The translations under genes were made by a program, and so were the position numbers. A stretch of 64,000 bases of DNA from Lachnospiraceae bacterium (GTDB taxonomy: Bacteria > Bacillota > Clostridia > Lachnospirales > Lachnospiraceae). The stretch spans positions 1-64,000 of the forward strand of contig JAFRSH010000005.1 in assembly GCA_017427685.1 (NCBI GenBank), in the 5' to 3' direction. The notes beneath the pieces are model-generated. The model was not told the origin of the DNA. It saw only the letters and a program-made list of their open reading frames with translations, and did not search any database. Below are positions 259-13,541 of the stretch, one piece after another. The number at the start of each line of letters is the position of its first letter. The stretch's first letter is position 1.

Positions 259-1230
259 TTAACCAATGTATTTGCGGTGTGAATTCTTGATTGTAGAGTC
301 CTTAATGACCGTATACAACAAAGTAGTCGAGATCTGAGAATGCCCGAGAACTCTCTGTACCTGTTCAATCGGCATACCCTTTTCAAGTGCAGTCGTAGCC
401 ATCGTCCTACGGCAGCGATGAGGATGACACTTCTCGATATTACAACGTTCTCCCAGACGATGCATCATGATCTCTATACCGCCGGTCGTTATTCGCTTAG
501 CAGGTTTTCTTATGGAGACAAACAAGGCTGGATTATCATCTGTTCTTGCAGCAAGGTATTCTTGGAGATGAAGCTTTGTTTTAGCATCAAAATAGGTGAG
601 CCGTTCCTTATCTCCCTTTCCGAGGACTTTGCATTCGCGCTCTTCAAAGTTGATATCATTGCGATTGAGTTTTACAAGCTCTCCGATTCTCATTCCGGTC
701 GAGAACAGGAATTCGATTATTGCCAGATCCCTCAAATACTTACATCCATCCCTCAGCTTTTCAAGCTCCTCATCAGAATATGCGGCCTTTACCTTCTTTG
801 TAAGCTTGATCTTATGAATCTTCCGAAGTGGGCTCACGAAGATATAATCTTCATCCTCAAGCCAGTGATATAAACTCGACAAATTTCGCCTTATCCCATC
901 AATTGTCGCTTTGCTTACGTTATGCTCCTCACGGTATCCGGCAAGGTAGTTACGTATATCCTCTGTTGTCACAGTACAGATATTCTTATTAACCTTTTCA
1001 AGCATCTTCTCGATTGTAAAGCGGTAAAGGGATAGAGTTTTCTCGGATCTGCCTTCCAACTTCTTCGAAGAAAGAAATGCCTCAAGGATCTCTTCTGATG
1101 ATCTGAGCTGGGAATCCAGTTTCGCATCCATCATGAGCTCCTCGAGAATAGTGTTAAGTTTCACCATCTGGTTGTTATCAATAACCTTCGACATCTTGTG
1201 AAGAATCATGTTTGCTTCTTCTTGGATCAT
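259..1230 (-). CDS. Tyrosine recombinase (XerC/D-like), 323 aa
   Basis: This is a site-specific DNA strand-exchange enzyme. The catalytic set is complete: R181 (in GMRIGEL), K205 (GKG), H271xxR274, H297 (LGHSQ) and nucleophile Y306. A SAM-like core-binding domain covers roughly residues 45-140. The start at 1230 has a GGGGGTG ribosome site and overlaps tnpW by 4 bp, so the two are translationally coupled. The protein is a clear paralogue of the recombinase at 36841-37809 in the restriction island; the C-terminal halves share long blocks such as KGMPIEQVQ and LGHSQI. It lies inside the serine-recombinase element, so its own recombination target is unknown. It could act on a cassette left of the window or be passive cargo. 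Confidence 0.9.
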   Translation of the reverse strand: MIQEEANMILHKMSKVIDNNQMVKLNTILEELMMDAKLDSQLRSSEEILEAFLSSKKLEGRSEKTLSLYRFTIEKMLEKVNKNICTVTTEDIRNYLAGYREEHNVSKATIDGIRRNLSSLYHWLEDEDYIFVSPLRKIHKIKLTKKVKAAYSDEELEKLRDGCKYLRDLAIIEFLFSTGMRIGELVKLNRNDINFEERECKVLGKGDKERLTYFDAKTKLHLQEYLAARTDDNPALFVSIRKPAKRITTGGIEIMMHRLGERCNIEKCHPHRCRRTMATTALEKGMPIEQVQRVLGHSQISTTLLYTVIKDSTIKNSHRKYIG

Positions 1231-1424
1231 ACAACACCCCCTTTTTCCGGGGAATCGATGTACCTTACTTCATCAGCAATCAAACGTTCGCACTTTTTCT
1301 GAAGTGTCTCCTTACTATCCTTGTTAAAGTGAACCTTTACAAGGAAGGTCGTCTTGCCAATCTTCTTACGGACTGTTACGAAATCCTGTTCACGGTTGAT
1401 GCTATTAGTATTGTTATCTGTCAT
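1227..1424 (-). CDS. tnpW: TnpW-like transposon-encoded protein, 65 aa
   Basis: This small protein has the TnpW pattern: a short variable N-terminus, then KKIGKTTFLVKVHF and a helical tail with KKCERLIADE. TnpW is carried by Tn4451/Tn4453-type mobilizable elements; its function is not established. I placed the start at the ATG at 1424, which has an AAAGGA ribosome site, instead of the upstream in-frame extension, whose hydrophobic residues look like read-through. The stop overlaps the recombinase start. Finding tnpW together with a large serine recombinase and a MOBV relaxase supports a Tn4451-family element. Confidence 0.75.
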   Translation of the reverse strand: MTDNNTNSINREQDFVTVRKKIGKTTFLVKVHFNKDSKETLQKKCERLIADEVRYIDSPEKGGVV

Positions 1425-1448
1425 ATTCACATCCTTTCTAAAGAGGCC

Positions 1449-1722
1449 TGTCAACGCAAACGTCAACAGACCCCAAAACACTTTTCTTAATTTTTAATTG
1501 TCTTTTTTCTTCTCTGAACCTTTTTACCCTTCGTTGACGTTTTTCGTTGACATTAAAAACAAAAAGCCCGAGAAATAAGGATTCTCGAACTCTAAGCACT
1601 CAGATTTCATGTCAACGAACCGTCAACCAAGCATGTCAACGAAGTGTTAATAATCAAAATCCGTCATCTCCTTCATATAGTTGCGGAGGAAAGTCATCGT
1701 CCGTTGACACGTCTTCGTTGAC
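1449..1722. repeat. Array of nine TGTCAACGA-type iteron-like motifs
   Basis: Nine copies of a 9-mer close to TGTCAACGA or its complement occur at 1449, 1461, 1531, 1544, 1610, 1621, 1634, 1701 and 1714. Several pairs are spaced 13 bp start to start (1531/1544, 1621/1634, 1701/1714), and the others 11-12 bp. The last two lie inside the 3' end of the vapE-like gene. Regular spacing near a primase and helicase is typical of iterons at a replication origin, or of binding sites for an element-encoded regulator. The array is direct observation; the role is inference. Confidence 0.6.
1553..1589 (-). terminator. Terminator after the vapE-like gene
   Basis: On the minus strand, stem CGAGAA / TTCTCG with a 7-nt loop is followed by GGGCTTTTTGTTTTT. 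It ends the mobV-CHC2-vapE transcript and lies inside the iteron-like array. Confidence 0.7.
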
Positions 1723-3057
1723 ATTTTTGACTCTTTCCCAGCCCTTTTGAGTACCATAATCACTATGGAAACGTCTGGGACTGTCGAAGTATCGCCATCC
1801 CTCAAGAGATCCTTCTCGTATCAGCTGATTCATGATGTCGTTGATCTCATTCGTCTGCCATCTTTGAGGTTGAGTATATTCATTATGAAGAGCCTCCCTA
1901 AAAAGTTGCTTTGAGCAGACCTTATCTCCCGGGTAATCCTGCATGAATGCTAGGATCAGCCCCGAGTCGACATCTTCCTGCATGAACTGCCTTTGTCTGA
2001 GACGAAGCTCGTCCTCGATTCTTGGCGGTAGTTTGAGAGTAACGCTCCCAGAACGATATATCTCCATAGCCTCAGCCCACATCTGAACAATATACTCACG
2101 AGATGCTTTCTCGTCGTCCAGAATAAAGACCTCGGCTTTGCTCTCATCGCAGGCAACAGGAAGAAAACGGCGATTCCCAGTCCTATCACTCGGCAGAAAA
2201 CTGATCTTGTTAGTAGTCCCGGCAAATACACATTGTCTCGGTCTGTCCTTTGGATATCTCTCATAAGGAGTTCGGAATATATCTTTCTGTCTGCTCAAGA
2301 AGCTTTTTATAGCTTCATTACTCTTAGCGTTATTAGTAGCTAGCATCTCCGACATCTCGATAATCAGATGACCTTTGATCTTCTCGTAAACCTTATTACT
2401 CTCAAGATCTTTAAGATCATCTGTGAACCAATCATCATCGATTGCCAGGAGCCGGAAGAAAGATGACTTACCGGCTCCTTGATCACCCACAAGACACATG
2501 ATGTAGTCAAATTTGATTCCAGGTTCAAACACTCGCGATATCGCTCCTAACATGAAAAGCTTCAGCACCTCATAGGTATAATCGCTTGCATCAGCACCAA
2601 GAAAATGGCTCAATGCAAAACAGATACGCTCTCGGCCATCCCATTTAAGGCTATTAAAGAAATCTCGAACCGGGTGATAGTAGTTCCTGTTAGCTACTAT
2701 CTGTAATGCCTCATCGATCTTCCTGATATCAGAGCACCCGTATGTTTCTTCTATATATAAATGAATGTTATTAAGGTCATTATCCGTAAAAGCCTTTCCA
2801 TTACGCCTATCCCATCCCAATGGTCTGACCACATCTATATTTTGCGTGAAGTCGTTATACCTGATACTGTCATGTAATAACGGATCCATTGAAAGAATCT
2901 TCACCGCATTCGAGATGGTATTCTTCACAACATCCTTATCAGTCTTATCAAGTAGCTTACTGACATCCTCTACGGTCATATCTGTTTGTAACCCCATAGT
3001 TATCTCCAAAAGTTTATTCTCCATCGCAGGATCTAATCTTTCTGATTCTTTCTTCAA
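1654..3057 (-). CDS. VapE/virulence-associated E family helicase
   Basis: This is a superfamily 3-like or primase-associated ATPase of the VapE family, found in mobile elements and thought to unwind DNA during their replication. Walker A is GDQGAGKSS, near residue 190. Downstream blocks (LIIEMSEM, FAGTTN and GNRRFLPV) match the VapE core. I prefer the TTG at 3057, 8 nt after GGGAGG; an earlier TTG at 3063 is too close to that site, and an ATG at 3024 is also possible. It overlaps the end of the CHC2 primase gene by about 44 bp. The pair CHC2 zinc-finger protein plus VapE is a recurrent split primase-helicase module. The 3' end carries two copies of the GTCAACGA motif. Confidence 0.85.
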   Translation of the reverse strand: MKKESERLDPAMENKLLEITMGLQTDMTVEDVSKLLDKTDKDVVKNTISNAVKILSMDPLLHDSIRYNDFTQNIDVVRPLGWDRRNGKAFTDNDLNNIHLYIEETYGCSDIRKIDEALQIVANRNYYHPVRDFFNSLKWDGRERICFALSHFLGADASDYTYEVLKLFMLGAISRVFEPGIKFDYIMCLVGDQGAGKSSFFRLLAIDDDWFTDDLKDLESNKVYEKIKGHLIIEMSEMLATNNAKSNEAIKSFLSRQKDIFRTPYERYPKDRPRQCVFAGTTNKISFLPSDRTGNRRFLPVACDESKAEVFILDDEKASREYIVQMWAEAMEIYRSGSVTLKLPPRIEDELRLRQRQFMQEDVDSGLILAFMQDYPGDKVCSKQLFREALHNEYTQPQRWQTNEINDIMNQLIREGSLEGWRYFDSPRRFHSDYGTQKGWERVKNVNEDVSTDDDFPPQLYEGDDGF

Positions 3058-3631
3058 GTGCAATTACCTCCCTTCCTTTTTCAATAATGATCGATGCCTT
3101 TTCTTCCTTTGTGCCGCTATTCAACAGATCAAGAAGATACTCGATATAGTCTTTCTTATGGATTGCTTCGAGGAAAAGCGGATGATAGTCTTCATCCGGA
3201 GACTTCGGTTCGTACTTCCATAACCAGTTATTCAGGAGATGAAAGTACTGAAGATAGACAATGTTCATTCGATCAACAGATTTCTCGAACAACAGATCCT
3301 TCATTTTCTGACGTCTTATCCGCTTATACTCGGAATATCGTTTCTTCTTTTTCTTAGGTTGTCTCCCTACCTCGATCGGGAGCCGAAAATCTGATATCAG
3401 TTTCTCGGCTGCCTCTCGCGAAGACAGATTGAACAGTTTTTCCGTAAACCTGATCACATCTCCATTTTCCTGGCAACCAAAGCAATGAAAGTTCCTATCG
3501 ACCTTCATGCTGGGATGCTTATCATCATGAAAGGGACAGCACATCATGCCGTTCCTACCAACATCGAAGCCATAATGTAAGGCAACATCTTTCGCCGTAA
3601 CCTGATCTTTTATTTCTGTGAATAAACTCAT
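3014..3631 (-). CDS. CHC2 zinc-finger DNA primase-like protein
   Basis: The N-terminal zinc-binding domain of DnaG-type primases is complete: C32-x2-H35 (CPFH) and C50-x2-C53 (CFGC), with the typical HPS and FHCFGC context. No TOPRIM catalytic domain follows. The C-terminal half is a lysine-rich (KKKKKRYSEYKRIRR, about 94-108), helical region of unknown fold. It probably binds template DNA and works with the overlapping VapE helicase during replication of the element after transfer. The start at 3631 has a good GGAAAGGAG ribosome site. Confidence 0.88.
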   Translation of the reverse strand: MSLFTEIKDQVTAKDVALHYGFDVGRNGMMCCPFHDDKHPSMKVDRNFHCFGCQENGDVIRFTEKLFNLSSREAAEKLISDFRLPIEVGRQPKKKKKRYSEYKRIRRQKMKDLLFEKSVDRMNIVYLQYFHLLNNWLWKYEPKSPDEDYHPLFLEAIHKKDYIEYLLDLLNSGTKEEKASIIIEKGREVIALEERIRKIRSCDGE

Positions 3632-3687
3632 ATAGCTCCTTTCCGGGCATAAGAAAAGCGCCTGACTTTTGTTAGTACAGACGCTTC

Positions 3688-4884
3688 TTAAAGCCCTATA
3701 TCATTTTGTTTGTGTCTTGATACCGAACCTCGTTTCTTTTCCTCATCGACTATCTTTTGTTTCTCTGCGAGAGTCTTAAGGATAGATTCCTTGATCGGTT
3801 TCTTCATCTTTTCTTTCTGGACGGGATCACCGAAGATCTTGTTAAGCCTCTCGGTAATATGTTCTGACATTCCTTTGAACCTGTTAAGAACACGGTTGAT
3901 CGCATTCTTTATGATCGTCTTTTTTGTCGGCGAATAATCTTCTCGGGAGAGAAGTTCCTTCTTGACTTTCGCGATCATATCGAAGTCCGCGTTATGCGTT
4001 TCCTCGATCACTTTATCCTTTACAGCCTTGACCGCAGACTCGTAAGCCACTTCGGACACCTCTTCGATAAACTTCTCCGTATCTTCGATACGGACGGTGA
4101 GTGCTTCCAGTTTTTCTTCCTGTTTCTTGATAATGAAGTCTGTCTTCTCGAGATATTTCCGATCACCGTACTCCGGTTCCTTATCCAGATGCAGACCATG
4201 TTTCTCACAGATATCGAAAAGCATCACGCGACATGCTTTATCAAAAGATATCTTCCTGTTATTGAGTTTCCCGGGCTTTTTATCCGGGAAGGGGAGCTCA
4301 AATCCGAGAGCTTCCAGAGCTTTTTCCTGTTGCGGCATGATCTCGCCATAGCGATTAGGACAGTCAAAAACATGCCGCTCATGGATGTGAGGCGTAGCCT
4401 CATCCACATGCAAAGACCAGTCTATGATATGAACATATTCTCCGAACCTTTTCTCGAATTCTTCGAAATAATCTTCGGCGATCCTGAACAAAGTCTTGTA
4501 AGAAACCGAGTCTTCCATCGTTCCAATCTGAAGGATCGTTTCTTCCGGACAATATCTTTTATCGGCGCGAAGATCTTCCGGTCTTCGATCTCTTTCAGAG
4601 TGTCCGGTCTTTCTGTTTCTTTCGTTCTGAGCATCGCAGTAATCGCAATAGCGCTCATAGTAGAATGCTCTTTCCACCTCTTCGAACGATAACGGATTTC
4701 TTCCGATGTGTTCATCTATGATGGGATTATGATAGCCCTGCATATAATCCCAATAGATGTTTTCCTTTGCGAGATCCTGATCAATATGATCAGCGTTTTC
4801 AAGATCGAACTTGCGGTCATTGTGCTTCGGATTGAAGGCTCCGTCTTTACCGGTTCGACCATTGTGTCTTGTTAATTTGGTCAT
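3688..4884 (-). CDS. mobV: MOBV-family relaxase (Pre/Mob-like), 398 aa
   Basis: This enzyme nicks the element at oriT and pilots the strand into a conjugative apparatus supplied in trans. The metal-binding motif HVDEATPHIHERHVF near residues 160-175 is the MOBV signature (HxDExxPHxH). The N-terminus has RHNGRxGKDG and NPKHNDR, as in clostridial mobilization proteins. Long helical segments after residue 270 suggest a coiled-coil tail. I chose the ATG at 4884 because GGAGGAAATC lies directly before it; the longer form starting at 4932 lacks such a site. The upstream 400-bp non-coding stretch is the likely oriT. Confidence 0.88.
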   Translation of the reverse strand: MTKLTRHNGRTGKDGAFNPKHNDRKFDLENADHIDQDLAKENIYWDYMQGYHNPIIDEHIGRNPLSFEEVERAFYYERYCDYCDAQNERNRKTGHSERDRRPEDLRADKRYCPEETILQIGTMEDSVSYKTLFRIAEDYFEEFEKRFGEYVHIIDWSLHVDEATPHIHERHVFDCPNRYGEIMPQQEKALEALGFELPFPDKKPGKLNNRKISFDKACRVMLFDICEKHGLHLDKEPEYGDRKYLEKTDFIIKKQEEKLEALTVRIEDTEKFIEEVSEVAYESAVKAVKDKVIEETHNADFDMIAKVKKELLSREDYSPTKKTIIKNAINRVLNRFKGMSEHITERLNKIFGDPVQKEKMKKPIKESILKTLAEKQKIVDEEKKRGSVSRHKQNDIGL

Positions 4885-4961
4885 GATTTCCTCCTTCATT
4901 TCGATAAAATATTCTGGGAAAACCTGTTTCATAACTTCAAAAAATCACGTTATTTCGACAG

Positions 4962-5080
4962 GTTATAACCCAGTACGAAGTGACGATGCTCATCACTTTA
5001 CTGGGCGGGGTCTTACCCTCGACCTGCGCAGGATCTTCAACCCTGCACCCGACAAAGGGAATCATTCCCCTTGACCCCTT
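4962..5080. other. Probable oriT / relaxosome region
   Basis: Two inverted repeats lie just upstream of the relaxase gene. The first, 4969-5005, pairs CCCAGT-acg-AAGTGA with TCACTT-t-ACTGGG around a 9-nt loop and is followed by a G-rich run, GGGCGGGGTC. The second, around 5055-5075, pairs AAGGGAAT with ATTCCCCTT. A hairpin followed by a conserved strand just upstream of mob is the usual layout of MOBV origins of transfer. The nick site was not identified. Confidence 0.55.
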
Positions 5081-5171
5081 AGCCGACAAAATCAAATCAC
5101 GATGTGTGCTCCATCGGTCTCCGCTTTCATCGGTTCGCGCGTAAACATCCACCGGATCTTTCCACGCAAAA

Positions 5172-5318
5172 AGCCGCTGACCTCTTCGCTGCTGTCACAA
5201 CAAAGTGACGGAGCAAAGTATCAACGGCTCTCCTCAATGATCGACCAGGGCAGTCGCCTTGGTCTTGATCATTATCGGTTATGCGCACGCGATGTGATCA
5301 TGCACTCACATCGTATGC
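5172..5318. repeat. Three consecutive hairpins between relaxase and serine recombinase
   Basis: The hairpins are: 5172-5229 (AGCCG / CGGCT enclosing GTCAC-aacaaa-GTGAC); 5237-5272 (ATGATC-g-ACCAGGG / CCTTGGT-ctt-GATCAT); and 5285-5318 (GCA-cg-CGATGTGA / TCACATCG-ta-TGC). The last overlaps the recombinase stop codon and is followed on the plus strand by ATTTTTT. They may be terminators for the recombinase or part of the oriT structure. No open frame in 4885-5297 looks real. Confidence 0.55.
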
Positions 5319-7184
5319 TTTATCATTTTTTATGATCGTAGGCTTACCTTCAGGCAGATCAGCGACGACCAAATACAACCCATTCTCACGATCTTCTTTA
5401 CGGATCTCTTCTTTCAAAGCATCAATCTGAGCTTTCTTCTTTGCTTTGACTTTTGCTTCATAAGATTTCTGCCATCCATTCTCTTTACGACGAAGATAAG
5501 CCGCATGAGCTTTTTCTCTTCTCTTACGTTCCTTCTCAATCGCTTCGAGTTCTTCGGGTGTCGGTTCCTTAACACAATCAGGTGGCAGATACTTTCCTGC
5601 AAAGTTGAAGAATATCTCGATCTCCTGAGAACATGTTGAAGATCCTTTGACATCTCTTTCATGAACCAAAACCTTATCGACCAATTCCAAAATCATCGGA
5701 CTTGTCAGTTCGTCAAAGTTCTCGTACTTATCAATCAGTTTGATAAAGCGCTCCGCGTTATTAACGTTCGCGTTATATTCCTTAAGACCATCTTCACACT
5801 TCTTATTGTCTTCGGTGATCTTAATACGCTCAGCTTCATAAGAGGAAGACAATACAGTATAACGGTCATCAGGGAGTTTCCCGAGAATATTATCCTCATA
5901 GATGCGACAAATAAGAGTCTCCAATTCCTTAAGGCGTCGATTATTCGACTCGATCGTTTGCTTTAGCTTCACAATATCAGACGAAGCCTGCTTCTCTTGT
6001 ACCTCAGTAATGGTACGAATAAAAGCTTCACGGTCAATTTTGGAATAGTCCGCGATAGACTTAAGAAGACTCTTAATCAATTCAAGAACACTTTCCTCAT
6101 TAACACGATGCTGAGTAGGACAAAGCTTACCGACCGGAGTTTTTGTATATGCGGAACACGTGTACTGAGCAATCCGTTTACCGTTACTTGTCCGGTGAAC
6201 GTACATTTTTGCACCGCAATCGGCACAGTACATCAGCCCCGTAAGAGGATGCGTCTCACCCCAACCATCGGGATATCGTCTCACATTCCTTCTTATCTTC
6301 TGAACAAGATCAAACGTATCCTGATCAATGATCGGTTCCTGAGTATTCTCGAATATCACCCAATTATCTTGTGAAACATAATGACTCTTTTTATCTTTGA
6401 AGTGCTTGGCTGTTTTGAAATTGACCGTGTGACCCAAGTACTCTTGTTTCCTTAATATACTTACAATAGTAGAAGAAGACCAATGGTAAGGATCCTTGAT
6501 ATCGGAATGCTGATGCAATCCCTGTCCGAACCTTGCCATATGAACCCCGGGGATCTCAACCTTATCTTCCTCGAGTATCCGCGATATCTGATAAGGACCA
6601 TATCCTTCGATGGTCAATCTGAATATCCTGCGGACTACCTTGGCGGCTTCTTCATCTACTATCCAATGATTACCGTCATTCTCATCTTTGAGATAACCGT
6701 AAGGACATGTACTGGCAACGTGCTTGCCGGACTTACCCTTCGCCTTGAAGACGGATTTTATCTTCTTTGATGTATCCCTTGCATACCATTCATTCATGAT
6801 ATTACGGAAGGGAAGAAAGTCATCTTCTCCCTTATAAGTATCAGTACCGTCATTTATGGCTATAAGACGGACACCTTTTTGTCTGAGCATCTCAACGATC
6901 TGACCGACCATGAGATAATCTCTTCCGATACGACTCATATCTTTTACACAGATAGTCCCGACGTTGCCACGATTGACTTCTTCCATCATAGACATAAAGC
7001 CGGGTCTATCGAACCGAGTACCGGAGATACCATCGTCCGTAAAATGTGTCGGGCTTGATAAGCCTTGCGACACTGCATAGTCCATGAGCATCTTCTTTTG
7101 GTTGCTGATACTATTTGATTCGCCTTGAAGCTCGTCGTCACGAGACAAACGCTCATACAAAGCGGTAATTTTCGCTTTTTTCAT
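5298..7184 (-). CDS. tnpX: Large serine recombinase (TnpX/TndX-like), 628 aa
   Basis: This is a site-specific recombinase that excises and inserts Tn4451-type elements through a Ser-linked double-strand exchange. The N-terminus reads ALYERLSRDDE, with Ser14 as the predicted nucleophile. The resolvase domain spans about 5-150, the recombinase domain about 170-290, and a zinc ribbon follows (CADCGAKMYVHR, with the partner cysteine in CPTQ). A long lysine-rich coiled-coil tail closes the protein, as in TndX. The start chosen has GGGGGTATTATC before ATG; the 16 extra upstream codons lack a ribosome site. It is the last gene before the break in virD4, as expected for tnpX lying at the element end. 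Confidence 0.93.
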   Translation of the reverse strand: MKKAKITALYERLSRDDELQGESNSISNQKKMLMDYAVSQGLSSPTHFTDDGISGTRFDRPGFMSMMEEVNRGNVGTICVKDMSRIGRDYLMVGQIVEMLRQKGVRLIAINDGTDTYKGEDDFLPFRNIMNEWYARDTSKKIKSVFKAKGKSGKHVASTCPYGYLKDENDGNHWIVDEEAAKVVRRIFRLTIEGYGPYQISRILEEDKVEIPGVHMARFGQGLHQHSDIKDPYHWSSSTIVSILRKQEYLGHTVNFKTAKHFKDKKSHYVSQDNWVIFENTQEPIIDQDTFDLVQKIRRNVRRYPDGWGETHPLTGLMYCADCGAKMYVHRTSNGKRIAQYTCSAYTKTPVGKLCPTQHRVNEESVLELIKSLLKSIADYSKIDREAFIRTITEVQEKQASSDIVKLKQTIESNNRRLKELETLICRIYEDNILGKLPDDRYTVLSSSYEAERIKITEDNKKCEDGLKEYNANVNNAERFIKLIDKYENFDELTSPMILELVDKVLVHERDVKGSSTCSQEIEIFFNFAGKYLPPDCVKEPTPEELEAIEKERKRREKAHAAYLRRKENGWQKSYEAKVKAKKKAQIDALKEEIRKEDRENGLYLVVADLPEGKPTIIKNDKAYDVSA

Positions 7185-7272
7185 GATAATACCCCCTTTT
7201 CTTGAAATATAAAAAAACGCGAAAAGACGCATAAATACAGGGCTTTTCAGCCGACGTATTAAAACGTCTCTT

Positions 7273-8295
7273 TCACGTTACATTACCGGCAGAAAGCTTG
7301 TATTTCTTGTACTGCCTTACCGCAAAGTGGTCAGGCTTCTCCGCTTCAAGGTCTTCAAACAGCAAATCTATTGCATTTTTAAAGGTTTCATCCTCTTCCC
7401 TGACCTCAGATGCGTTGATCATGTCAAGCAGCATCGAGAAATTCTGCTCATCCTCCGGTGCCTCGTACCAGATATACCCGATATAGGCCTGATACAGGAG
7501 CTTTTCGCTCTTCACCCAAAAATCCTCGGTTGCTTTTTCACCCTCGCCTTTGGTGTTTGCGACTAATGTGTTTACAAGCTTAAGTATATCCTTTTCCGAG
7601 CGGATGTACATAAATGGATTATAATGCTGGCTCTTTTTGAAATTTATCGTGTTAAAGACCTTTATCACATATCCGTGCCTTTGGAGCATCCTGCCGCACT
7701 CAACAAGAACCTGTCCTTTCGGATCGGTCACGCAGTATGAACTATGGAGCTGCATGAGCTGCGGCTTCACAAAGAATCTCGTCTTTCCGCTGCCGCTGCC
7801 GCCCACCGCTACGATATTCTTGTTTCTGGCGTTCTTCGGATCCTTTGGACGACTGTTCATGGTAAGGCTTTCCGTAGCAGTAAGAATGATATTATTTTCC
7901 TCGTTTTCATCCACGAAAGGCTCAATATCCTTTTTCGTTCCCCATCTGGCGGAACCGAACTCCGTACCGTAACGGAATTTCTTTGCGTTTTTCCTCTTGT
8001 ACACGACTACTCCTTTCAATATAAGCCCGGCGACAATGCCGATCAGGATATCTATTGGATGAATACTCGGCAGGGGATTTTTAAATCCGTCACCGAAGTT
8101 CATTACAACATAACTAATCTTATATGCCGCAAGGTCTGCGTCCGACTGCCGGTACAGCCATGAAAGCTTATCGCCAAAGTATCCTGTGATGATATATGGG
8201 ATATTCATAATGAGAATCTTTTTGATGTCCGCTTTTCTGATCTGCTCCTTCTTTTCTGCTATCACCTTTTGAAACTTCGCTTTCTTCTCGCTCAT
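7273..8295 (-). pseudogene. virD4: VirD4/TraG coupling protein, 3'-truncated by element insertion
   Basis: This is the ICE coupling ATPase that links the relaxosome to the type IV secretion channel. The visible 340 residues include two N-terminal membrane segments (about 26-42 and 83-98), an SARWG motif near 115-119 and a Walker A at 165-172 (GGSGSGKT). Family members are about 600 residues long. Here the frame runs into AGNVT and a stop where the family continues after KLxAGK, so the Walker B and C-terminal half are missing. The break coincides with the right end of the TnpX element. The start overlaps the pcfB stop by 4 bp. The 3' half should lie to the left of the inserted element. Confidence 0.85.
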
Positions 8296-11662: not shown

Positions 11663-12766
11663 TTATCCCTGCTCCTTGAAGTATTTATCCAACGCCACCT
11701 GTATGATCGCCTGCACCTTATCGTCATTCATGCCCTTAAAGTATTTTTTATAGACTATCTTTGGCAATCTCACATTCTGATATGCCCTTGATTGCGGCTT
11801 TCCTCCCGATGAAAGACTTTTTGCCAACTCGTCTACTCTTGCTGACGTCAGATCCTCTCCTACATCCCGAAACAGCTTGGCTGATTTCATGTTGATGCGG
11901 AACTTATATCTTTCCGCCGCATCGTTAATCCAGCCCTGTGCAGCCTCGGAAAGAAACGATAACTCCACAGCGGCATATAGTGGTAAAATATCCTTATCCA
12001 CCATTTCCTTAAATACTGGAATCAAGTTATTTAACCTCAAAAGCCGTGCTACAGTCTTGCTCGACAACCCATATTCCGCTGCCACAACTTCTCGACTTGA
12101 AAAACCTGCATTTTGGTCTATTAGACCACCGCTATTTCCTTCTTGGTCTATTAGACCAAATTCATCTTTTTGTCCTTTAGATATAAATCCCGCCGTTTTC
12201 GTCTTTCCTCTTAGGTCTATTAGACCAACCATAGAATCCAGTATCGCCTGCTCTGGATTTTTTCCTTCAAGGAGAGCTATTTCCCTGATGATGTCATTAC
12301 GTTTTCCTTGAACTTTTATAGTGTTATATCTCTTTTCCAGGATAGAAGCCTTCTCGCTCGGCAGGAAATCCGAAAACGACCTCTGCATGAGATTCGTCTC
12401 GATGACATACACGTAAGCTTCTTCATCGGAGATATCTTCCTTGACAATCGCAGGAACAGTTGCGAGTCCCGCAATCTTTGCCGCATTGGTTCTGTTGTGT
12501 CCCGCCAGCATTTCGTACTTATCATCGATCTTCCGAACGATCACCGGAGTCAAAACGCCGTGAGTCTTAATACTTTCCACCATGTCATCCAGTCTCTCAC
12601 CCTCATACAACCTGAAGGGATGATCCCTGAACGCTACAATCTTCTCAATCGGAATCTCCTGTACCTTCGAACCGGTTCCCTGCCCGGAATCCACATCCGG
12701 TTCCGGTCCGGTCAGCACATCTATCGCATCATCAAATATCTTTCTTCTTGGAGCATTAGCTTTCAT
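11663..12766 (-). CDS. parB: ParB/Spo0J-family partition protein, 367 aa
   Basis: This is a centromere-binding CTPase/DNA-clamp protein that segregates the ICE when it is extrachromosomal. The N-terminal ParB/sulfiredoxin-like domain (IPIEKIVAFRDHPF, then GHNRTNAAKIA at about 93-103, where the motif GHNR binds nucleotide) is followed by a KorB-like HTH region (SREVVAAEYGLSSKTVARLLRL, about 225-246). Between them, residues about 180-222 form an unusual insertion in which GLID occurs three times. These copies are encoded by three near-identical DNA palindromes. The start overlaps the parA stop by 11 bp. It is probably co-transcribed and autoregulated with parA. Confidence 0.9.
   Translation of the reverse strand: MKANAPRRKIFDDAIDVLTGPEPDVDSGQGTGSKVQEIPIEKIVAFRDHPFRLYEGERLDDMVESIKTHGVLTPVIVRKIDDKYEMLAGHNRTNAAKIAGLATVPAIVKEDISDEEAYVYVIETNLMQRSFSDFLPSEKASILEKRYNTIKVQGKRNDIIREIALLEGKNPEQAILDSMVGLIDLRGKTKTAGFISKGQKDEFGLIDQEGNSGGLIDQNAGFSSREVVAAEYGLSSKTVARLLRLNNLIPVFKEMVDKDILPLYAAVELSFLSEAAQGWINDAAERYKFRINMKSAKLFRDVGEDLTSARVDELAKSLSSGGKPQSRAYQNVRLPKIVYKKYFKGMNDDKVQAIIQVALDKYFKEQG
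12114..12227. repeat. Three 15-bp palindromes within parB
   Basis: TGGTCTATTAGACCA occurs at 12114-12128 and 12144-12158, and AGGTCTATTAGACCA at 12213-12227. Each is an inverted repeat with a single central base. They encode the three GLID units of ParB. Such repeated palindromes resemble ParB or ParA operator/centromere sites. Confidence 0.8.
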
Positions 12767-13541
12767 ATCCTACCAGCTCCTTTGCAAATTCCGAATAAGC
12801 AACTCCCGCCGGAGATTTGGGATCGTACTCCTCAACGCTCATTCCATAATATATCGCTTCGCCGACCTTGACAGTCTTGGGGATCCTCGAATGAAATACC
12901 ATAAGCTTGTCTTTGTAGGCATCCTCAACCTCATCCGTAATAACCTTACAAAGATTTGTCCTGTTATCACATTTTGTCAAAAGAATGCCCGCAACTTCAA
13001 GATTGGGATTTATCCTCTTTTTGACCTTAGAAACGGTTTTTAAAAAGTCTTTCAGCCCCATCATGGTAAGAAGCTCCGGATCCGCCGGAATAATTACCCT
13101 GTCAGACGCCGCGAGAGCGTTTATAGTGAGCGTTCCAAGCGAAGGGCAGGTATCTATAAGCACCACGTCATAATCGTCCTTAAAACCCCTCAGAATGTCA
13201 CGCAGCATGTTTTCAGATCCCATTTCCATACGAAGCTTTGCATCTATCACTGAAAGCCCGATGGTTGATGCGATATAATCCACACCGTTACAATGATTGA
13301 TAAACTCGGATCTGTCCGGTAGTTCTTCCTCTTCCATCATGGCAAGCATCAGATCCTCGACATAATAATCTCCGTTTCCACTGTCCTGCTTTCCAAAACA
13401 GGTACTGAGATTCGACTGACTGTCAAAATCAACTGCCAATACCTTGTATCCCATCTTAGCTAAAGAATATGCCAGATTAAAACAGGTAGTAGTTTTTCCC
13501 ACGCCACCTTTCTGTATGGCACAGCAATATGTAACCGCCAT
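12756..13541 (-). CDS. parA: ParA/Soj-family partition ATPase, 261 aa
   Basis: This deviant Walker A ATPase drives segregation of the excised ICE together with ParB. The motif KGGVGKTTT at 11-19 has the characteristic early lysine, followed by a Walker A' DFDSQSNLS and a Walker B DVVLIDTCPSL. Length and motif order fit soluble chromosomal/ICE-type ParA proteins. No N-terminal DNA-binding domain is present, so autoregulation, if any, would come from ParB or from the small HTH protein upstream. The next gene upstream ends only 4 bp away. Confidence 0.93.
   Translation of the reverse strand: MAVTYCCAIQKGGVGKTTTCFNLAYSLAKMGYKVLAVDFDSQSNLSTCFGKQDSGNGDYYVEDLMLAMMEEEELPDRSEFINHCNGVDYIASTIGLSVIDAKLRMEMGSENMLRDILRGFKDDYDVVLIDTCPSLGTLTINALAASDRVIIPADPELLTMMGLKDFLKTVSKVKKRINPNLEVAGILLTKCDNRTNLCKVITDEVEDAYKDKLMVFHSRIPKTVKVGEAIYYGMSVEEYDPKSPAGVAYSEFAKELVGYES

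Follow-up and report, generated by a model that had tools for sequence, protein, structure and literature searches.

Palindromes within the parB genes of clostridial mobile elements: a putative centromere encoded beside, and matched to, the helix-turn-helix of its own ParB

The par locus

The DNA analyzed here (the window: a 64,000-nucleotide stretch of contig JAFRSH010000005.1 from a Lachnospiraceae bacterium) carries two overlapping par genes, both on the reverse strand. The upstream gene, parA (12756..13541), encodes a 261-aa protein of the AAA_31 family (5.9e-50, 170 bits) and overlaps the start of parB (11663..12766), whose 367-aa product combines a CTPase-type ParB_N domain, a long linker with three palindromes, a helix-turn-helix (HTH), and a C-terminal part. 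The ParB_N domain (residues 34-122; 12401..12667, reverse strand) is recognized by Pfam with 1.6e-21 and 76.6 bits, against a cut-off of 26.3, and the protein also matches the NCBIfam model parB_part (TIGR00180) with 72.8 bits, against a cut-off of 58.45. A Walker-type parA gene directly upstream of and adjoining parB, a central HTH, and a palindromic cis site at the locus are criteria of ParABS (type I) partition systems; the first is met by the gene order, the second by the predicted fold, and the third by the three palindromes described below.

Structure comparison of the predicted model assigned the window ParB to the ParB/Noc/KorB fold, with Z scores of 8.7 against 6y93 (3.1 Å over 102 residues), 7.9 against 6s6h, 14.5 against KorB (8qa9), and 7.8 against the KorB DNA-binding domain (1r71). 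The comparison with full-length 6sdk gave a Z score of 16.8 with a large rmsd, probably reflecting domain shifts in the model. The HTH (residues 224-247; 12026..12097, reverse strand) comprises predicted helices at 224-231 and 236-247 and includes R226, S237, and K238, located in alignment columns 183, 194, and 195, the columns that follow the palindrome sequence. The canonical ParA-binding motif, given as LG-R/K-GL in the accessible part of PMC12704722, was not found in the window ParB on inspection by eye, a point that was counted against the explanation preferred below.

Elsewhere in the window, a VirD4-like coupling gene (7273-8295) covers only positions 1-208 of the 442 positions of the CD1115 family model, and its end adjoins a gene for a large serine recombinase (5298-7232). 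The VirD4-like gene looks interrupted by another element, and, virD4 being short, the window element has perhaps lost its mobility, which was likewise counted against that explanation. The downstream region 259-5298 contains ORFs that, judged by eye only, resemble those for a tyrosine recombinase, a virulence-associated-E-like protein, a primase, and a relaxase; on that resemblance, it is perhaps a second mobilizable element.

Three palindromes in the linker

The sequence GGTCTA-T-TAGACC occurs three times within parB, reading GGTCTATTAGACC on the forward strand at 12115-12127, 12145-12157, and 12214-12226, with spacings of 30 and 69 nt. All three copies fall into the stretch of linker codons for residues 181-220 (12107..12226, reverse strand), which is predicted to be disordered (pLDDT <50). 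The sequence-only reading of this DNA had described a 15-bp palindrome recurring three times; the three recurrences stand, although the perfect palindromes extend over 13 bp (12214..12226), 17 bp (12143..12159), and 15 bp (12114..12128), so that only 13 bp are common to all. Their centers lie 174, 105, and 75 nt, respectively, before the HTH anchor, and the last of these distances is close to the 69 to 78 nt usual in the family. That reading had correctly placed the palindromes between the nucleotide domain and the HTH and noted that they encode GLID: all copies are in frame, with the codons GGT CTA ATA GAC in each.

No further exact copy of this sequence is present in the whole genome of 2,820,578 bp (2.82 Mb), and a search allowing one mismatch returned the three window copies and a single one-mismatch site on another contig. 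CTA is a rare codon: in eleven ORFs of the window, it makes up 3.9% of those for Leu. Given the GLID residues and local codon usage, the chance of the palindrome codons is 6.4e-4 per copy and would be 2.7e-10 for all three if they were independent; the latter figure is overstated, as the copies may be duplicates. In the general score of 12 arm pairs applied to the family, the window palindromes are unremarkable (8 of 12 pairs; P of 0.59 in the synonymous shuffle). The argument for the window locus is built on the exactness of the repeats, the choice of codons, and the pattern seen in the family.

Palindromes retained in relatives with other residues

The linker of one relative (L035; 67% identity over the best segment, 76% in alignment A1) carries two copies, one encoding GLID (site GGTCTAATAGACC) and the other GLLD (site GGTCTATTAGACC), each inside a 25-bp near-palindrome. 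In two other relatives, the corresponding peptides are DLID (L075, site TGATCTAATAGATCA) and GLIG (L174, site GGCCTAATAGGCC), and ParBs without any GLID have long perfect palindromes of other sequence at the same place in the linker, such as AACTTGTGACCAATTTGGTCACAAGTT in L026 and the 31-bp palindrome of L121 and L122. Palindromes are thus preserved while codons and residues vary, the outcome that the sequence-only reading had expected of a site acting as DNA. The observation that it had named as fatal to this idea, GLID residues written in codons that break the palindrome, was not made in any linker found. Its alternative suggestion, selection on the protein repeat, gains no support from a stretch that is predicted to be disordered and whose residues vary together with the palindrome.

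Place and pairing in the family

ParB loci were drawn from genomes, viral contigs, and named records and anchored with an HMM. A scan of the viral contigs with the window protein alone revealed no relative; scans with alignments A1 and A2 yielded 18 and 57 loci. The 237 distinct ParB-like ORFs included 201 with both anchors, which were scored; the rest (fragments, ORFs with short linkers, and distant ORFs) were left out. The sample consists mostly of clostridial genomes, the available flanks span a few kilobases, and the evidence is that of sequence comparison alone.

Linkers in which 10 or more of the 12 pairs are complementary were observed in 150 of the 201 anchored ORFs, mostly from clostridial mobile elements; the other 51 have no linker palindrome of this quality. 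When codons were resampled synonymously, the mean maximum was 7.1 pairs, and 159 ORFs were significant at P < 0.05 and 133 at P < 0.01. The same level was reached outside the linker in only 15 of the 201 ORFs, over more than 8 times the length, and anywhere at all in just 1 of 17 chromosomal-type ParBs. The family palindrome is odd-centered and up to 31 bp long, and its place is fixed: the center falls on codon position 1 in 149 of the 150 ORFs, and its distance before the HTH anchor is mostly 69 nt (79 ORFs) or 78 nt (40 ORFs), followed by 66 nt (11 ORFs) and 72 nt (8 ORFs). Named carriers include Acetoanaerobium noterae (the GLIG-encoding locus mentioned above), plasmids of Enterococcus faecalis (L175) and Cohnella herbarum (L177), and a Streptococcus phage record (L256).

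Each of the four Watson-Crick pairs is represented at arm positions 4-7 of the 124 distinct 27-mers, and the two arms are seen to change together in a compensatory manner, also at sites where the change alters the amino acid. Each of the two bases at position 6 is the first of its codon, and the amino acids there therefore follow the pairing. Because the 27-mers had been selected for pairing, which inflates their paired fractions, free third codon positions were tested as well: 443 of 490 such pairs are complementary, versus 196 expected from codon usage.

Further copies of the site near parB, with three mismatches allowed, were detected at only 4 of the 149 palindrome-bearing loci, so there is no general multicopy array. 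One of these loci (L146) has matching palindromes at 2053-2081 and 3375-3403, one directly ahead of parA and the other within parB. In two further genomes (G148 and G179), only one site was found in each. At four loci (L085, L086, L087, and L093), a second, shorter ParB-like ORF, which was also scored, lies beside the palindrome-bearing one.

HTH residues and palindrome bases

The association of HTH residues with palindrome bases was tabulated for 146 ORFs (147 before removal of one duplicate) with at least 10 of 12 pairs and a palindrome center no more than 100 nt from the HTH; base counts for each residue were taken among sites paired at that position. These tables contain near relatives, and kinship was handled only in the tree contrasts and control columns, using a FastTree tree. 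In the pairwise analysis of core differences, after correction by regression for overall protein distance elsewhere, columns 195, 183, and 194 ranked highest (0.42, 0.35, and 0.28, with the next column at 0.15), one column beside the palindrome codons being set aside.

The residue in column 195 goes with the bases at positions 4 and 5. Position 5 is G in 45 of 45 sites with Arg and 7 of 7 with Lys (together, 52 of 52), and position 4 is C in 40 of 40 sites with Asn, G in 14 of 14 with Asp, and A in 9 of 9 with Glu. Likewise, in column 183, Arg is accompanied by G at position 6 in 47 of 48 sites and Asp by G at position 7 in 27 of 28. In leave-one-out prediction, column 195 gave the correct base at position 5 in 123 of 129 cases. 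Independent contrasts of column 195 against position 5, on a tree built without the linker and the HTH, agreed in 16 of 17 cases, with none opposite and one without a difference (P = 3e-5); the highest fraction among 152 control columns was 0.42. The window ParB, which was outside the training set, has Lys (K238) in column 195 and Arg (R226) in column 183, and all three of its palindromes have G at positions 5 and 6. Among 16 weaker sites outside the training set, 12 match at position 5, and the four misses all have Ser in column 195, a residue that is not predictive. As judged from these alignments, the association appears near-deterministic and comes close to a code.

Columns 183, 193, and 194 align to Q162, S172, and R173 of Caulobacter ParB, which contact parS in a co-crystal according to the portion of PMC7383237 that was available. 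This correspondence was obtained via an alignment to Thermus Spo0J and the residue numbers in that paper, and it depends on a weak HMMER alignment.

Exchange of the palindrome together with the HTH

A total of 144 ParB pairs are at least 80% identical outside the linker and the HTH. Median HTH identity is 1.0 in the 39 pairs with the same palindrome core and 0.44 in the 58 pairs with at least two differences among five core positions. In the DNA of nine aligned pairs, identity drops from mostly >80% in the flanks to roughly 30 to 70% over the palindrome and the HTH. Replacement of a cassette of ∼100 to 130 bp is thus observed between otherwise near-identical relatives, which differ in the palindrome and the HTH together. 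Two loci of a single genome (L110 and L127 in G104) encode ParBs that show no difference in the scored columns beyond the cassette, and each has its own palindrome and HTH. No avoidance of a common core was apparent between co-resident elements: such a core occurs in 2 of 23 co-resident pairs, versus 71 of 5,886 pairs overall. These counts are low, and the two pairs in question resemble close relatives.

ParBs without an intragenic site

Clear cases of ParBs lacking an intragenic palindrome (score of <9, at least 200 bits) number 29 and serve as natural controls. Odd-centered palindromes, 10 in all, were found in the flanking DNA of nine of them, and 8 of the 10 have the base at position 5 that is predicted from the HTH. 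Among the eight with the central C typical of the family, seven have the predicted base (those of L014, L091, L169, L226, L233, L234, and L235; the exception is L007). For comparison, palindromes outside parB at loci with an intragenic palindrome show the predicted base in 6 of 20 cases and the central C in 1 of 20. The remaining 20 of the 29 ParBs have no odd palindrome with 11 of 12 pairs in the few kilobases of flanking sequence either. At four loci without an intragenic palindrome (L226, L233, L234, and L169), family-type palindromes lie 0.5 to 2.5 kb from parB, and the one near L169 sits in another ORF.

Proposed function and alternatives

We consider it probable that the palindromes represent a self-encoded parS-type centromere, located just upstream of the HTH codons and recognized by the ParB encoded around it; no binding or partition data are available. 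This agrees with the suggestion in the sequence-only reading of an embedded centromere, one stretch both encoding ParB and binding it, which the third-position pairing and the association of the sites with the HTH residues make the best-supported reading; neither binding nor the choice between centromere and operator is settled by these data. The parS interpretation is preferred because only this one site was found in two further genomes, because it lies beside parA, and because its reader is a ParB. Binding of ParB, its CTP-dependent loading, and a role in partition are all inferred. Also weighing against the interpretation are the ORFs without a linker palindrome, most of the clear cases having none in the flanks either, the lack of predictive value of Ser in column 195, and the absence of core avoidance between co-resident elements. 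The two half-sites would be contacted by the HTHs of a ParB dimer, in which the residues of columns 183, 194, and 195 would read positions 4-7 of the arms; the bound protein would be loaded as a CTP clamp and, together with ParA, would partition the element in a plasmid-like state. The palindrome and the HTH can be expected to mutate and recombine as one cassette: with site and reader within ∼100 to 130 bp of one gene, both would change at once, allowing a new specificity without loss of self-recognition. The cassette of most relatives contains a single site of greater length (as long as 31 bp), and the window linker is an expanded one with three shorter copies, whose number, by inference, may compensate for the shorter arms.

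The most serious alternative, unlikely in our estimate and still worth keeping in mind, is that ParB binds the palindrome mainly to control transcription of parAB, as a roadblock or looping operator, and not as a centromere. The evidence linking reader and site applies equally to an operator, and the matching palindrome just upstream of parA in L146 occupies a typical operator position. However, few of the palindrome-bearing loci have further copies, L146 is the only one known with a copy at the par promoter, and a site ∼0.5 kb inside the second gene is unusual for an operator. The two roles can coexist, and repression of parAB, besides or instead of partition, remains possible. We hold it improbable that the palindrome is a site for some other protein, such as a recombinase or a modification enzyme, or a by-product of hairpin template switching, in either case unrelated to ParB. 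Palindromes can perfect themselves through template switching, and the cassette is indeed bounded and exchanged, yet neither version predicts that single residues would be associated with single bases in independent lineages or that the same code would hold at extragenic sites.

An RNA hairpin in the parB message can hardly be credited. Long inverted repeats on a transcribed coding strand would fold, but the central pair, which a hairpin could not form, persists in 112 of the 124 distinct 27-mers (versus 51 expected), and arm mismatches do not favor G-U (36) over A-C (52). An RNA element, moreover, would not follow the HTH residues, and some of the sites lie outside the gene; the hairpin was rejected on the central pair and the mismatch balance. 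There is just as little room for selection on a GLID repeat in the protein, with the palindrome as its mere consequence. Three GLID repeats and a fixed codon frame speak for it, but relatives alter the residues and keep the palindrome, most of them lack GLID, the codon choice is extreme, and the stretch is predicted to be disordered; the changed residues of the relatives led to its rejection.

With the self-encoded centromere as the preferred reading, we lean, with more reserve and again without binding data, toward a wider proposal: that the parB genes of many clostridial mobile elements carry a swappable specificity cassette of ∼100 to 130 bp in which the same codons specify a part of the protein and its palindromic DNA target, to be read by the neighboring HTH in a near-deterministic code, column 195 setting positions 4-5 and column 183 positions 6-7, so that recombination would create new partition identities while self-recognition is kept.

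Comparison with known systems

KorB of the IncP plasmids is a ParB-fold protein as well, and its operator OB is, like the window sites, a short odd-centered palindrome. The latter is found at sites scattered across the plasmid, where it serves repression, whereas the window site lies within the gene of its own reader. The parS-359 site of Bacillus subtilis belongs to the set of chromosomal parS sites, which share a fixed consensus. Unlike these, the site in the clostridial family is odd-centered, has a fixed place before the HTH, is lineage specific, varies with the HTH residues, and did not turn up at any other place in the three genomes searched (the window genome, G148, and G179). The two systems are otherwise alike in protein family and fold and in having the site inside the gene: the accessible parts of two reports (PMC4442127 and PMC4333373) place the palindromic parS-359 of the B. 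subtilis ParABS (Spo0J/ParB) system within parB.

Intragenic parS sites are thus already known, in B. subtilis parB and in repABC ORFs, so far as the partly available sources go. In the repABC plasmids, the available text of PMC9040568 gives the parS consensus GTTNNNNGCNNNNAAC and mentions some sites that fall inside ORFs or at the repB 5' end. These sites resemble those of the clostridial family in combining a fixed palindromic frame with variable inner bases and differ in that their position varies; no cassette of site and reader inside parB is described in the portion of that paper available, and the window sites (GGTCTAATAGACC) do not fit its consensus. Centromere-binding specificity that is diversified among related elements and sets their compatibility is also a feature of the ParMRC (ParR/parC) systems of Clostridium perfringens, as far as the accessible part of PMC9426499 indicates; these belong to a different partition type and form families instead of exchanging a cassette within a gene. 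In the open-license literature, the only precedents encountered for parS inside the parB of mobile elements were those from B. subtilis and repABC, with none on the clostridial family, and no account was found of a family-wide, lineage-specific site covarying with the HTH in one cassette, which is no proof of absence.

Implications

Partition requires a match between protein and site, and the origin of a new matched pair is an open question, puzzling because a change in either partner alone breaks the system. A site and its reader in one stretch would move as a unit, and sequence would reveal dozens of naturally matched pairs. The set provides a table of amino acids and bases for the ParB-type HTH that is directly testable, and the centromeres of many unannotated elements would become predictable from parB alone. 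It also points to a way in which related elements could come to share a cell, as with the two ParBs of a single genome mentioned above. If the proposal is true, cassette exchange would be a built-in mechanism that multiplies compatibility groups and gives these elements new segregation identities.
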